Shown: positions 5,912 through 64,000 of the stretch, in pieces
How the letters are laid out: every line of letters begins with the position of its first letter
How positions within the stretch are numbered: the stretch's first letter is position 1
NCBI RefSeq assembly: GCF_000242595.2
Contig: NC_017098.1
Span: 496,001 to 560,000, forward strand
Origin: Spirochaeta africana DSM 8902
GTDB taxonomy: Bacteria; Spirochaetota; Spirochaetia; DSM-27196; DSM-8902
DNA: 64,000 bases
Direction of reading: 5' to 3'
Made by a program: the position numbers and the translations under genes
The notes under the pieces: generated by a model
The model's database searches: none
What the model was told of the DNA's origin: nothing
Seen by the model: the letters and a program-made list of their open reading frames with translations, nothing else

Positions 5912-7756
5912 ATGAGGCAGCACTACACACTGGGAATTGATGTCAGCACGCAGAGTATCTCTGCGGTTGTGCTGGATGTACAGACTGCAGAGCTGATCCA
6001 CAGCATCAGTCTGTCCTATCGGGATGATCCGCGACTGAATCGCTTCGGAATAGAGTATGACAGCTTGCTGGTGCCACCCCGGGAACCCGGCGAGGCCGAT
6101 CAGCCCCCGTTGATGTTCCTGGCCGGGCTGGATTCCCTCTTTGCCGACCTGGCGGCAGCCGGTGCCCCGCTGGGCTCCCTGGCAGGTATCGCCGTGAGTG
6201 CCCAGCAGCATGGCCATGTGTATCTGCGCGACACGGCCGGCACGGCGATCGCCGGTCTGCGGGATGCCGGCAGTGAAGTTGAAGCTGGCAGCGCCGGTGG
6301 GGCTGGCGGTGCTGATGGGGCCGGGGATGCCCGGCAGGCCGGTGGTGCTGGGGATGCCGGTGGGGCCGAGGCTGCTGGTGGTGCCGAGGATGCCCGGCAG
6401 GCCGGTGGTGCTGGGGATGCTGGTGGTGCCGAGGATGCTGGTGGTGCCGAGGATGCTGGTGGTGCCGAGGATGCCCGGCAGGCCGGCAGCGCTGCTCAGG
6501 CCGGGCTGGCCGGACGGTGTGCGACGATCTTTGCCTACGGCACCGCCCCGATCTGGCAGTCGGCGAATACCGGCATCGAGGCGGAGCATATTCGCCGCTG
6601 TGTCGGCGGTCGAGAGACGGTTATCCGGGTGTCCGGCTCGGACAGTCCTTTGCGATTTACCGGGGCGGTGGTGCGCCGGGTGGCGGCACGGTTTCCGGAG
6701 GTATATGCCGCCACCAGCAGAATCTCGCTGTTAAGCAGTTTCCTGTCAGGGGTGCTGAGCGGCAACCCCGATGTCCCCATAGACTGGGGCAATGGTTCGG
6801 GCATGTCGTTGATGGATTACCGTGGCAGAACCTGGTCCCGGCACCTTGCGGCTGCAGTTGCCGACGGGCTTCCGGGTGGTGCTGACGGCTTGCTGGCGCG
6901 GCTGCCGGGGCTCGATTCCCCGCTGGCGATTGCCGGGTCAATCGCCGGATATTTTGTACGTCGGTACGGGGTAAACCCCGCATGCCTGGTAACGATCGGT
7001 TCCGGCGACAACCCGCAGTCCAAGGTGGTAACCACGCAGGATCTGTTGTCGCTGGGCAGCAGTTTTGTGTACATGGTGGATACTGCGGAGCCCCTGGTAG
7101 ATCTGCAGGGCTATGCCAACAGCATGTACGATGGCGCCGGTCGTCCGTTTGTGTTTGCCTGCCGCACCAATGGCGCCATGGTCTGGGATCGTGTCCGGGA
7201 GATCTTTGGCGCTGACTACGCCGCGGCCGATGCTGCATTGGCGCAGAGCCCGGTCGGCTCGGTGCTGCAGTTGTGGCAGCCGCGGGCCGAGAGCTATCCG
7301 GCATCGCCGGTAATCCCGAACAGCGCGATCGAGTCCGGGCAGGGCGATCTGGCGGCCCTCTACCCGGCGATTGTGGACAGTACCCTGGCAATTGTCCGGC
7401 ACTACGCCCGCGGTTTCGAGGGTGGAGACAAGACCGGAGAGCCCCTGGCGGTCACCGGCGGCCCCAGCCGCAGCCGGGAGATTCTGCGGCGTGTCGCGGC
7501 AATCTGGAACCGTCCGGTGTATACGGTGGGCGATGCCGGTGCTGCTGTTGGCAGCGCCCTGTCTGCCTGGCAGGCAGTTTGCCAGACAGATGGCAGCGAC
7601 GCCGGGCTTGAGCGGCTGCGCACTGTCCTGTCGAATCCCGGTGACCTGCTGCAGCCTGAGCCGGAAGCGGCCGACCGAATGGCTGCCGACAGCACCTACA
7701 TCCAGCAGCTGGAAAAGCAGCTGTCGCTGTGGCTCATGAACGGCGGTGATCGCTAG
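5912..7756 (+). CDS. FGGY-family carbohydrate kinase with a repeat insertion
   Basis: A 614-residue cytoplasmic sugar kinase of the xylulokinase/ribulokinase superfamily, longer than the usual 480-540. The N-terminal ATPase core starts YTLGIDVSTQS. The region around WGNGSGMSLMD holds the likely catalytic aspartate, and the C-terminal ATP-binding motif is VTGGPSRSREI. Residues about 112-198 are an inserted Gly/Ala/Asp-rich repeat tract, probably a surface loop. It starts 3 nt after the dehydrogenase stop. It probably phosphorylates the ketose that enzyme makes; D-xylulose or ribulose are the best guesses by family. Confidence 0.85.
   Translation: MRQHYTLGIDVSTQSISAVVLDVQTAELIHSISLSYRDDPRLNRFGIEYDSLLVPPREPGEADQPPLMFLAGLDSLFADLAAAGAPLGSLAGIAVSAQQHGHVYLRDTAGTAIAGLRDAGSEVEAGSAGGAGGADGAGDARQAGGAGDAGGAEAAGGAEDARQAGGAGDAGGAEDAGGAEDAGGAEDARQAGSAAQAGLAGRCATIFAYGTAPIWQSANTGIEAEHIRRCVGGRETVIRVSGSDSPLRFTGAVVRRVAARFPEVYAATSRISLLSSFLSGVLSGNPDVPIDWGNGSGMSLMDYRGRTWSRHLAAAVADGLPGGADGLLARLPGLDSPLAIAGSIAGYFVRRYGVNPACLVTIGSGDNPQSKVVTTQDLLSLGSSFVYMVDTAEPLVDLQGYANSMYDGAGRPFVFACRTNGAMVWDRVREIFGADYAAADAALAQSPVGSVLQLWQPRAESYPASPVIPNSAIESGQGDLAALYPAIVDSTLAIVRHYARGFEGGDKTGEPLAVTGGPSRSREILRRVAAIWNRPVYTVGDAGAAVGSALSAWQAVCQTDGSDAGLERLRTVLSNPGDLLQPEPEAADRMAADSTYIQQLEKQLSLWLMNGGDR
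6280..6505 (+). repeat. in-frame tandem repeats inside the FGGY kinase gene
   Basis: A run of imperfect tandem repeats encodes GGAEDA and GDARQAGGA-type units. The cleanest part is three consecutive 18-bp copies of GGTGGTGCCGAGGATGCT at 6422-6475. All units are multiples of 3, so changes in copy number would keep the reading frame. The flanking sequence on both sides is conserved kinase. Confidence 0.9.
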
Positions 7757-61690: not shown

Positions 61691-61773
61691 CACGACTGTC
61701 GCCCCGATCGCCGTCGGACTCCGCTGGCAGGGCGATCGTCTGTATATCCACGGTACACACTCTCCCCCGTACA

Positions 61774-61807
61774 CAAAAAAACCGCCCGGGGAACACCCCG
61801 AGCGGTT
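61774..61807 (-). terminator. intrinsic terminator after the hsp20 pair
   Basis: On the minus strand AACCGCTCGGGG pairs with CCCCGGGCGGTT (one mismatch) around TGTT, followed by seven or more T. It lies about 60 bp beyond the last hsp20 stop and also faces the galM end. Confidence 0.85.
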
Positions 61808-61868
61808 CCTGTAGCGTGTGCCGGACCGGCAGCAGCGCCTGGCCGCATGCTTCGCAGCAGCCTGCAGC

Positions 61869-62204
61869 CTACTTGGCCGCAATCTCGATCTTGCGCGGCC
61901 TGGCCTGCTCGCGAATCGGCAGGGTCAGACGCAGAATCCCGTCCTCAAGATCGGCCTGGATCTTCTCTGCATCAATCTGCTGGCCCAGATTATAGGTCCG
62001 ACAGAAATCCCCGTAGCGCCGCTCGCGCACCAGATAATGCTGCTCATCGGCCACCGGTTTGCGGGCCCCGGTAATCGTGAGGGTCGTGCCCTCTACCTCG
62101 ATACCCAGATCATCCCGGGAAACCCCCGGCATCTCCAGGTCCAGTACAATGCTTCCATCCTTTTCTGTACGGGTCTCAGCCCGTGGTCGCAGCCAGTTTC
62201 GCAT
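61869..62204 (-). CDS. Hsp20/alpha-crystallin small heat-shock protein, second gene
   Basis: A 111-residue small chaperone. The alpha-crystallin domain covers almost the whole protein, from GSIVLDLEMPGVSRDDLGIE to LEDGILRLTLPIREQARPRK. The usual IxI-type C-terminal anchor is replaced by IEI at the very end. A very strong AAGGAGGTG precedes the ATG at 62204. It is shorter than the first gene because it lacks an N-terminal arm. The two genes form one operon with a 46-bp gap and probably build mixed oligomers. Confidence 0.92.
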   Translation of the reverse strand: MRNWLRPRAETRTEKDGSIVLDLEMPGVSRDDLGIEVEGTTLTITGARKPVADEQHYLVRERRYGDFCRTYNLGQQIDAEKIQADLEDGILRLTLPIREQARPRKIEIAAK

Positions 62205-62250
62205 AACACACCTCCTTGGGTTTATTCTCTTGGTACTCGCCGCAGCCGGC

Positions 62251-62691
62251 TTACTTCCCGGCCGCATCGCTGATCTGGATCTTGCGTGCAGTAGCCGCCG
62301 CACTCTTGGGAATGTGCAGACTCAGCACCCCGTTTTCCATTCGTGCCGCTACCTTCTCGCCGTCAATCCCCTCCGGCAGGGTGATGGAGCGCTCAAAGCT
62401 CCCGCTCTCTTCCCGGGTTACCCCTGCTTCCTTCTCGCGGGTCTCGCTGTGGCGGGTGCCTTTAATGGTCAGCACATTGCTGGTCAGCGACACATCCACA
62501 TCCTCGCGACGTACCCCCGGCAGATCGGCATAGATGTCATAGGCATCCTCGCGCTCGACCACATCCAGCCGCGGATACACATCGCTCCAGCGACCGCCCC
62601 GATCCATCAGAAAACTCTCGAACAGGCGATCCAGATCCTGTTCCCAGTCCTGCAGTGCCCGCATCGGGCTGTTCCATGTTACCAGATTCAT
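62251..62691 (-). CDS. Hsp20/alpha-crystallin small heat-shock protein, first gene
   Basis: A 146-residue small chaperone. The N-terminal arm (MNLVTWNSPMRALQDWEQDL) precedes an alpha-crystallin domain running from about residue 40 (PRLDVVEREDAYDIYADLPG) to LSLHIPKSAAATARKIQI near the end, with the conserved A-x-x-x-n-G-V-L as ARMENGVLSLHIP. AAGGAGGTG precedes the ATG at 62691. It binds unfolding proteins without ATP. It is the first gene behind a sigma-54-like promoter at 62764-62778. Confidence 0.93.
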   Translation of the reverse strand: MNLVTWNSPMRALQDWEQDLDRLFESFLMDRGGRWSDVYPRLDVVEREDAYDIYADLPGVRREDVDVSLTSNVLTIKGTRHSETREKEAGVTREESGSFERSITLPEGIDGEKVAARMENGVLSLHIPKSAAATARKIQISDAAGK

Positions 62692-62763
62692 AACGCACCT
62701 CCTTATCGTGCTGCCCGCTGCATCCCGCAGCCGGCCTTGATTTGTCTCTTCACTAACCTGTAT

Positions 62764-62778
62764 GCAGGAACCGTGCCA
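62764..62778 (-). promoter_or_regulatory. sigma-54-type promoter of the hsp20 pair
   Basis: The minus strand reads TGGCACGGTTCCTGC, which matches the -24/-12 consensus TGGCACG-N4-TTGC at all but one base, with GG-N10-GC spacing exactly right. The predicted start lies about 60 bp before the first hsp20 ATG. No CIRCE element is seen. Confidence 0.75.
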
Positions 62779-63189
62779 ACTTTGAATTTTTCAGGACGAG
62801 TCAGCACTATCAATCGAAGGGCGGGGCGCTCGCTGCGCAAATGCAGATACCGCAATAATTTATCCCGCGCCGGTGTCGATCGGCAGACACAGGGTTTTGC
62901 TGAGCGTACCCGGAAGACAGTATCGGCAGCCGCCAACCCGCATATCCCTGGGTCTCTGCGAAACGCACCAAACAATCACGATGGCACAAATTGAGTCATT
63001 ATGACTCATTTAGACTGGGTATATATGACCAGGTTGAGCAAAATACACCGGAGATACATATCTGAAAAAAAACACGCAAAAAATTGGTATTTTCCGATAC
63101 ATGTGCTACTCTGGCGGAGTGGTGCTATTGGGGATTTGCTGTGCCCAATCATCAAGAGAAATCACTCAATCACAAGGTAGTAATAGTCT
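62779..63189. promoter_or_regulatory. 410-bp gap without genes; palindrome at 62992-63008
   Basis: No coding frame here looks real. The one clear structure is TGAGTCA-TTA-TGACTCA (62992-63008), a perfect 7-bp inverted repeat. It could be the upstream activator site for the sigma-54 promoter (about 220 bp away) or an operator for the lipoprotein gene at 63190. An A-rich block follows at 63062-63085. Confidence 0.5.
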
Positions 63190-64000
63190 ATGGCGCGAGG
63201 ATTAATATCGGTACTCGCCGGCCTGTGCATCGGGCTGGTGCTCTCCTGTTCCCCGGCGGATATCTGGCAGTCCGATATCCGCTCCTACGTAGAGGACGGC
63301 ATGTCCGCCGTGCTGCTGGAGCGCTGGCAGATATCGTCTGCCGGCATGGTGCGCGCCCACAGCGTACCCGAGCACGAAAACGATCTGCATCTGCGCCTTA
63401 TCAACCCGCGCAACCTCCCCCTGGAGCTTGAACTGGTAGCTGCCGATCCGGAACTCTATGAGGGTGGGGCGGAGCCACATATCGAATATTACGATACCCA
63501 CAATGTGTACATCAATCTTCACCCTGCCCTGGCAGCCGAAAATACCACACTGCGCCTCACCCTGCATGTCTCATCCCCCCAGGTTGCCCGGGAGTTTCCA
63601 CCCATCGAGCTGAACCTGCCCAGCCGCTTTCCGGATTCCTCCATCGAGGTAGCCATCGACATCGCCAACCCCGACGCCCATGTACTGAGCTTTGATCCGA
63701 CCATTACCCAGGTAGATGTTGGCTCAGAACCGATATCGATTGCTCCGCAGACGCCAAGCGATCTTGTCAATAACGACGAAGATTGGGAATGGTATGTAAA
63801 TGGTGCCGGTCCCTATGGTAACGGCAGCAGCTTCGATTTCACTCCCATTAACGCCGGCGACTACATCATCAGCGCCTCTGTAACCCTGGATGGCATCCGC
63901 TACTCCGGCGAGATGCTGATTCGCGTCGTGCATCCCGGCAGCACTACCTATGCGATTTTTTACGATGCCAATGGGGGGAGCGACGCACCCGAGTATCAGC
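63190..64000 (+). CDS. lipoprotein with an InlB-type repeat start, incomplete at window end
   Basis: The frame opened by ATG 63190 stays open to the window end (270 codons). Residues 1-20 are a signal peptide with lipobox LVLSC. A beta-rich region follows with long Asp/Glu/Pro-rich stretches and an Ig-like segment near residues 200-250 (YVNGAGPYGNGSSFDFTP, then INAGDYIISASVTLDG). The last residues, YAIFYDANGGSDAPEYQ, match the start of a Listeria-Bacteroides (InlB B) repeat. It is probably a surface-exposed or adhesive lipoprotein; more repeats may lie beyond the edge. Confidence 0.82.
   Translation, partial: MARGLISVLAGLCIGLVLSCSPADIWQSDIRSYVEDGMSAVLLERWQISSAGMVRAHSVPEHENDLHLRLINPRNLPLELELVAADPELYEGGAEPHIEYYDTHNVYINLHPALAAENTTLRLTLHVSSPQVAREFPPIELNLPSRFPDSSIEVAIDIANPDAHVLSFDPTITQVDVGSEPISIAPQTPSDLVNNDEDWEWYVNGAGPYGNGSSFDFTPINAGDYIISASVTLDGIRYSGEMLIRVVHPGSTTYAIFYDANGGSDAPEYQ

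Follow-up and report, generated by a model that had tools for sequence, protein, structure and literature searches.

σ54 promoters require an enhancer-binding activator, and looping of the AAA+ activator together with ATP-driven opening is established for this class elsewhere. The control of small heat-shock genes by σ54 is, as such, already known. In Borrelia, the accessible text of PMC1976401 places hk2 immediately upstream of rrp2, and rrp2 last in a putative rpoS operon. The same text reports that Rrp2 of Borrelia does not require an enhancer and showed no binding to 238 bp of upstream DNA, and it proposes an essential role for Rrp2 beyond rpoS. In Treponema denticola, Rrp2 is called unstudied in the available portion of a 2025 paper (PMC12070737), which describes the PAS domain of Hpk2 as an oxygen sensor, with higher autophosphorylation without oxygen. 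The title of a reference within that paper terms the kinase a heme-binding sensor.

Here, we analyzed a window of 64,000 nucleotides from Spirochaeta africana DSM 8902, which corresponds to positions 496001–560000 of a single 3,285,855-bp contig. Judging from sequence, a pair of hsp20 genes in this window probably constitutes a σ54 operon, with an upstream palindrome as the activator site and a regulator of the Hk2/Rrp2 type as the activator.

The hsp20 pair and its predicted σ54 promoter

Both hsp20 genes are on the minus strand. The first, hsp20-A (62251–62691), encodes a 146-aa small heat-shock protein (PF00011, E 1.6e-24) and is preceded by a putative ribosome-binding site, AAGGAGG, at about 62698–62704 on the same strand. 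The second, hsp20-B (61869–62204), encodes a small heat-shock protein of 111 aa (PF00011, E 2.4e-22 on 61869–62207), and its ATG at 62204 was picked by eye inside a longer mechanical ORF. A GC-rich hairpin with a U run at 61775–61807 (minus strand) is the predicted intrinsic terminator of the pair; the region 61770–61868 (minus) folded at −53.4 kcal/mol (z −2.76), and the pattern scan for terminators did not report this hairpin. A third HSP20-family gene of the same genome is found at G000:C1:3067548-3067856, about 9 kb from rpoN. σ54 control of this third gene was rejected, as no site was found (best score 3.8).

The σ54 (−24/−12) promoter element reads TTGGCACG-GTTC-CTGCA at 62763–62779 on the minus strand. 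The 15-mer TGGCACGGTTCCTGC is the minus strand of 62764–62778, and the 17-mer TTGGCACGGTTCCTGCA (62779–62763, minus) lies 71 bp ahead of the first hsp20 ATG. The GG and GC of the 17-mer are 10 bp apart, which agrees with GG-N10-GC spacing, and the single departure from TGGCACG-N4-TTGC is a C that replaces the first T of TTGC. With −12 set on the C of the GC element, transcription is predicted to start at about 62752, 61 nt ahead of the ATG at 62691.

By itself, without its conservation, this site was only suggestive. Matches to TGGCACGN4TTGC with up to two mismatches were not enriched in the whole window (25 vs. 30.1 ± 5.4 in shuffles). A scan for σ70 promoters found one weak site at 62813–62786 (9/12), a number equal to that in shuffles. 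Both observations lend something to the reading that the σ54 site is a chance match and that a σ70-type promoter drives the hsp20 genes, against which stands a conservation that is order- and class-wide and contrasts with other phyla; we consider this reading extremely improbable. Control by HrcA through CIRCE was rejected, with no CIRCE element near the promoter: the best match to TTAGCACTC-N9-GAGTGCTAA in the window had five mismatches and was located at 6732.

A σ54 matrix, based on the consensus and not fitted, ranked the hsp20 promoter as the best of 10 sites scoring above 12 in the window (18.9; next 16.0), and the reversed matrix yielded four such sites. Genome-wide, TGGCACGN4YTGC matched 12 times compared with 2 for the reversed control. 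Ten of the 12 matches were inside long ORFs and two were just upstream of a credible gene; the ORF overlapping the hsp20 promoter site is antisense only and was judged spurious. The search for other such promoters, which the initial annotation had proposed, thus turned up one more credible case, a strict match 31 bp ahead of an amtB-like 451-aa ORF (L023; genome 2279519–2279533, plus strand). This ORF adjoins a GAF-type activator gene, and amtB-like genes are a classical kind of σ54 target.

Conservation across relatives removes the doubt about chance and supports the σ54 promoter that the initial annotation had placed at 62764–62778 for the hsp20 pair. In a search of 61 genomes (the window genome and 60 relatives), 54 matched hsp20, which gave 70 loci from 53 genomes. 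Two loci, L048 (G032) and L099 (G021), were left unscored as their upstream DNA was too short, and G058 was also outside the set. With a positive locus defined as a matrix score above 12 within 200 bp of hsp20, a putative σ54 site was present at 66 of 68 loci and in 50 of 51 genomes including the window genome, whereas the reversed matrix was positive at 1 of 68. The loci without a site were L085 (G017) and L089 (G010), and another G010 locus was positive.

From a scan that gave 80 loci in named genomes, we scored loci having 60 bp or more of upstream sequence for a site of this kind within 260 bp; 45/47 Spirochaetota loci had a σ54 site vs. 3/32 loci from other phyla. One locus with 41 bp upstream (L185) was left out of this count. 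The two Spirochaetota misses, L143 (9.3) and L168 (11.6), had near-sites 51–54 bp ahead of the gene. Because many of the named loci share their contigs with the first set, the two Spirochaetota counts overlap and are not independent, and what the named scan adds is the contrast with other phyla. The sigma factor itself appears intact in the window genome, where a 456-aa ORF contains Sigma54_DBD (E 1.1e-55) and the RpoN box ARRTVAKYR. rpoN was identified in 57 of the 61 genomes, including all 33 of good quality.

The upstream palindrome

A perfect palindrome, TGAGTCATTATGACTCA (TGAGTCA-TTA-TGACTCA, no strand assigned), is located at 62992–63008, and its start lies 229 bp ahead of the promoter 17-mer. 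An exact match to TGNGTCANNNTGACNCA occurred only once in the genome. With no motif assumed beforehand, AATGACAC emerged as the most frequent 8-mer ahead of 29 promoters; it was present in 16 of the 29 and in shuffles at most 5 times. Sites resembling TGTGTCA-N3-TGACACA (at least a 13/16 match) were found upstream of 76 of 86 distinct promoters compared with a mean of 0.9 and a maximum of 5 in shuffles, the enhancer matrix having been derived from part of the same data on which it was counted. The window palindrome conforms to this motif, its arms reading TGAGTCA/TGACTCA.

These enhancer-like sites were mostly 90–200 bp before the promoter. Neighboring sites were usually separated by 40–44 bp, and 37 of 54 intervals measured 39–45 bp, about four helical turns, and such phased sites have the look of an activator that would bind side by side on one DNA face. 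The window copy is weakest in being single and, at −229, farther from its promoter than most. No IHF-like site with up to one mismatch was found between the palindrome and the promoter. The initial annotation had named the palindrome as a candidate activator site, and the conserved, phased motif ahead of the hsp20 promoters of relatives supports its role as a putative conserved enhancer.

The palindrome is situated in a divergent intergenic region. The divergent gene, a lipoprotein-like ORF at 63190–63999 on the plus strand, runs off the end of the window, and a Pfam search returned no match for it. It could be supposed that the palindrome serves this gene or an unrelated repressor, and that hsp20 is activated without it in the way of Borrelia rpoS, the Borrelia regulator being reported as active without an enhancer in the available text of PMC1976401. 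No σ54 site was found facing the divergent gene (best matrix score 2.5), so σ54 control of this gene was rejected, and in most relatives the same motif is found ahead of hsp20, phased with respect to the promoter; on this evidence the supposition is very unlikely.

A pattern scan of the genome for further enhancers gave one exact palindrome and three one-mismatch places compared with three for the reversed control. On this result, no further regulon member is claimed. A joint pattern of enhancer and promoter was dropped before the collection scan, each single pattern having caught at most 5 of the 68 known cases.

The candidate activator and its gene cluster

That σ54 control would need an enhancer-binding activator, as had been argued at the outset, is backed by the conservation of promoter and enhancer. 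The window genome encodes seven strong σ54 activators, i.e., six besides an Rrp2-type regulator. They include a response regulator activator at 3.0537 Mb, about 4.5 kb from rpoN, and a GAF activator at 1.731 Mb. Their number and the proximity of one of them to rpoN speak for a reading in which promoter and enhancer are real and a different activator of this genome, such as one of these two, acts on them. The evidence described below makes this unlikely.

A tree was built from 53 activators of 23 genomes. One of its clades (100/99) had exactly one member per genome, and no other activator clade was present in all 23 genomes. A first tree had shown very long branches; L120, L123 and L128 were excluded from the present one, as was a weak third activator of G059 (L256). 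The recognition-helix region IGRKTLHRK was shared by most clade members and was lacking in the five other activators of the window genome that were compared; the HTH ends of the other activators differ, which also argues against their acting here.

A class-wide count of activators in 246 genomes gave genomes with a single activator, and hsp20 and activator searches were run on 19 genomes selected because their activators were few or to provide contrasts. Among these, nine carried an hsp20 gene along with just one activator at E ≤ 1e-20 (G056, G079, G092, G111, G123, G246, G252, G271 and G064), and in all nine the sole activator was within the 100/99 clade. An hsp20 promoter (17.9 to 20.6) 48–74 bp ahead of the gene, together with enhancer-like sites, was found in eight of the nine; G064 had neither. 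Promoter and enhancer are thus found in genomes whose sole activator is of the Rrp2 type. Because σ54 needs an activator, the clade regulator must be the one acting on hsp20 in these eight genomes if the promoters work. The eight genomes amount to about three independent lineages, as five belong to one genus and two to another. None of the single-activator genomes is from the family of the window genome, to which the assignment is carried over by orthology. Among the eight, rpoN was examined in G056 alone, where a frame change interrupts the draft gene within its DNA-binding domain (L219; G056:C76:12128-12540), with the hsp20 promoter and the activator kept; draft error and decay are indistinguishable as its cause.

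The activator of hsp20 is thus most likely an NtrC-family response regulator of the Hk2/Rrp2 kind. The initial annotation had guessed at an RtcR/PspF-like activator, which was not borne out and is not needed, because the invariant activator is a response regulator of the NtrC type. The clade regulator was also kept in genomes where the hsp20 search found none (G051, G065, G074, G107, G145 and G163), so it must have other targets. In G051 (L133), the Rrp2-type activator stands alone, with neither the kinase nor the usual neighbors beside it; G051 and G074 (L250) are both without an hsp20 match.

In the window genome, family searches identified the regulator (genome 688170–689519) as a 449-aa protein with REC, Sigma54_activat (AAA+) and Fis-type HTH domains. 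A 391-aa PAS-HisKA-HATPase kinase with no evident membrane span is encoded directly ahead of it. Genes for a MurG-like transferase, a CvpA-like protein and a DNA polymerase III delta'-like protein precede the pair. The order murG, cvpA, delta', histidine kinase, response regulator was shared by the window genome, G056, G059, G107, G246, G252, G145 and G064; of the cluster loci L130, L257 and L258, family searches were run on L130 and the others were matched by gene order and sequence start. In G107, which is Treponema-like and had no hsp20 match, the kinase reads as two overlapping ORFs of 312 and 136 aa (L261 7138–8441, minus), and the regulator is whole. The regulator clade (100/99, 23 rows) takes in the Borrelia-like G145 and G064, and the window genome and G145 share 54% identity in the regulator and 32% in the kinase. 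Tree and gene order together identify the pair as orthologous to Hk2/Rrp2 of Borrelia and Treponema.

Computation showed the promoter and the enhancer motif, the presence of rpoN and of the two-component pair, and the conservation of all of these. From these, we infer the binding of the regulator to the palindrome, the DNA loop and the nature of the signal. RNA polymerase with RpoN would wait in a closed complex on the −24/−12 element. The soluble PAS histidine kinase would phosphorylate the NtrC-type response regulator, and the hexameric AAA+ activator on the upstream palindrome would loop in and open the complex by ATP hydrolysis. Small-chaperone synthesis would then answer a cytoplasmic signal via the kinase rather than sigma-32 or HrcA. 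In an alignment of the PAS region of seven kinases, no His, Cys or Met was common to five of the seven. Conserved heme ligands were therefore not evident, and the link to oxygen is a lead only.

A proposed change of target and comparison with known systems

We infer that G145 and G064 are Borreliaceae. Both have a GC content of 0.27–0.28 at the locus and main contigs of about 0.9 Mb. Ahead of murG, gene order and sequence start indicated an rpoS-like gene with a σ54 site, a tsaD-like gene and a pdxK-like gene, an order that fits the account of the rpoS operon in the accessible text of PMC1976401. The rpoS σ54 sites scored 18.6 in G145 and 18.3 in G064, and no enhancer-like site was found within 320 bp upstream of them (L257 and L258), which fits the finding of the same text for Borrelia Rrp2. 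The hsp20 search found no match in G145. A single hsp20 was identified in G064 (L231; G064:C1:467573-467881), with no σ54 site (best 3.3).

On the simplest reading, hsp20 is the older target of the regulator and rpoS the newer. Retention of the regulator in G051, G065, G074, G107 and G163, where the search found no hsp20, counts against hsp20 as the only old target. We lean toward a scenario in which Hk2/Rrp2 was ancestrally an enhancer-dependent activator of small chaperones across Spirochaetia, and in which the Borrelia lineage lost hsp20 or its σ54 promoter and the regulator turned to rpoS of its own operon without an enhancer. Such a history suggests how a global regulator can move from one target to another. 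An ancestral role in proteostasis would also frame the question of Rrp2 essentiality in Borrelia; with no hsp20 match in G145, hsp20 itself cannot explain essentiality there.

The layout of a σ54 hsp20 promoter with a distant control site is common to most of the free-living relatives examined. It offers a direct, conserved candidate target and a DNA site for an activator family studied mainly in Borrelia, and it would tie protein quality control of free-living spirochaetes to a two-component signal. Our literature search, whose coverage excluded most subscription journals, yielded no description of a spirochaete-wide σ54 hsp20 regulon, of an enhancer for it or of a connection with Hk2/Rrp2. 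No paper combining Rrp2, Borrelia, sigma54 and hsp20 was found among the best matches listed.

The initial annotation had treated σ54 control of hsp20 as unusual. That view holds with a qualification: such control is on record for E. coli ibpB in the available text of PMC4316790 and predicted for Bacteroidota and Planctomycetota in that of PMC12316311. Like the hsp20 pair, ibpB is a small heat-shock gene with an upstream σ54 promoter; there, the promoter is operon-internal and adds to the sigma-32 control of ibpAB (PMC4316790, accessible text), whereas here it heads the operon and is accompanied by a putative conserved enhancer. The σ54 chaperone regulons predicted in Bacteroidota and Planctomycetota include the sHSP group COG0071 as well. 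In its available portion, PMC12316311 does not name Spirochaetia for this group and assigns no spirochaete enhancer or activator.

The two-component pair has its closest parallels within the spirochaetes. T. denticola Hpk2/Rrp2 (TDE1970/TDE1969) is similarly composed of a PAS kinase and a predicted σ54 activator, according to the accessible text of PMC12070737, and in the Treponema-like G246 and G252 the gene order around the pair matches that of the window genome and a σ54 hsp20 is also present. B. burgdorferi Hk2/Rrp2 shares with the window genome an orthologous kinase and regulator and a σ54 output. Its target is rpoS, with no enhancer within 238 bp in the account available from PMC1976401, whereas here the pair probably targets hsp20, and an enhancer-like site is present. 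The difference lies in the target of the pair and not in its orthology.
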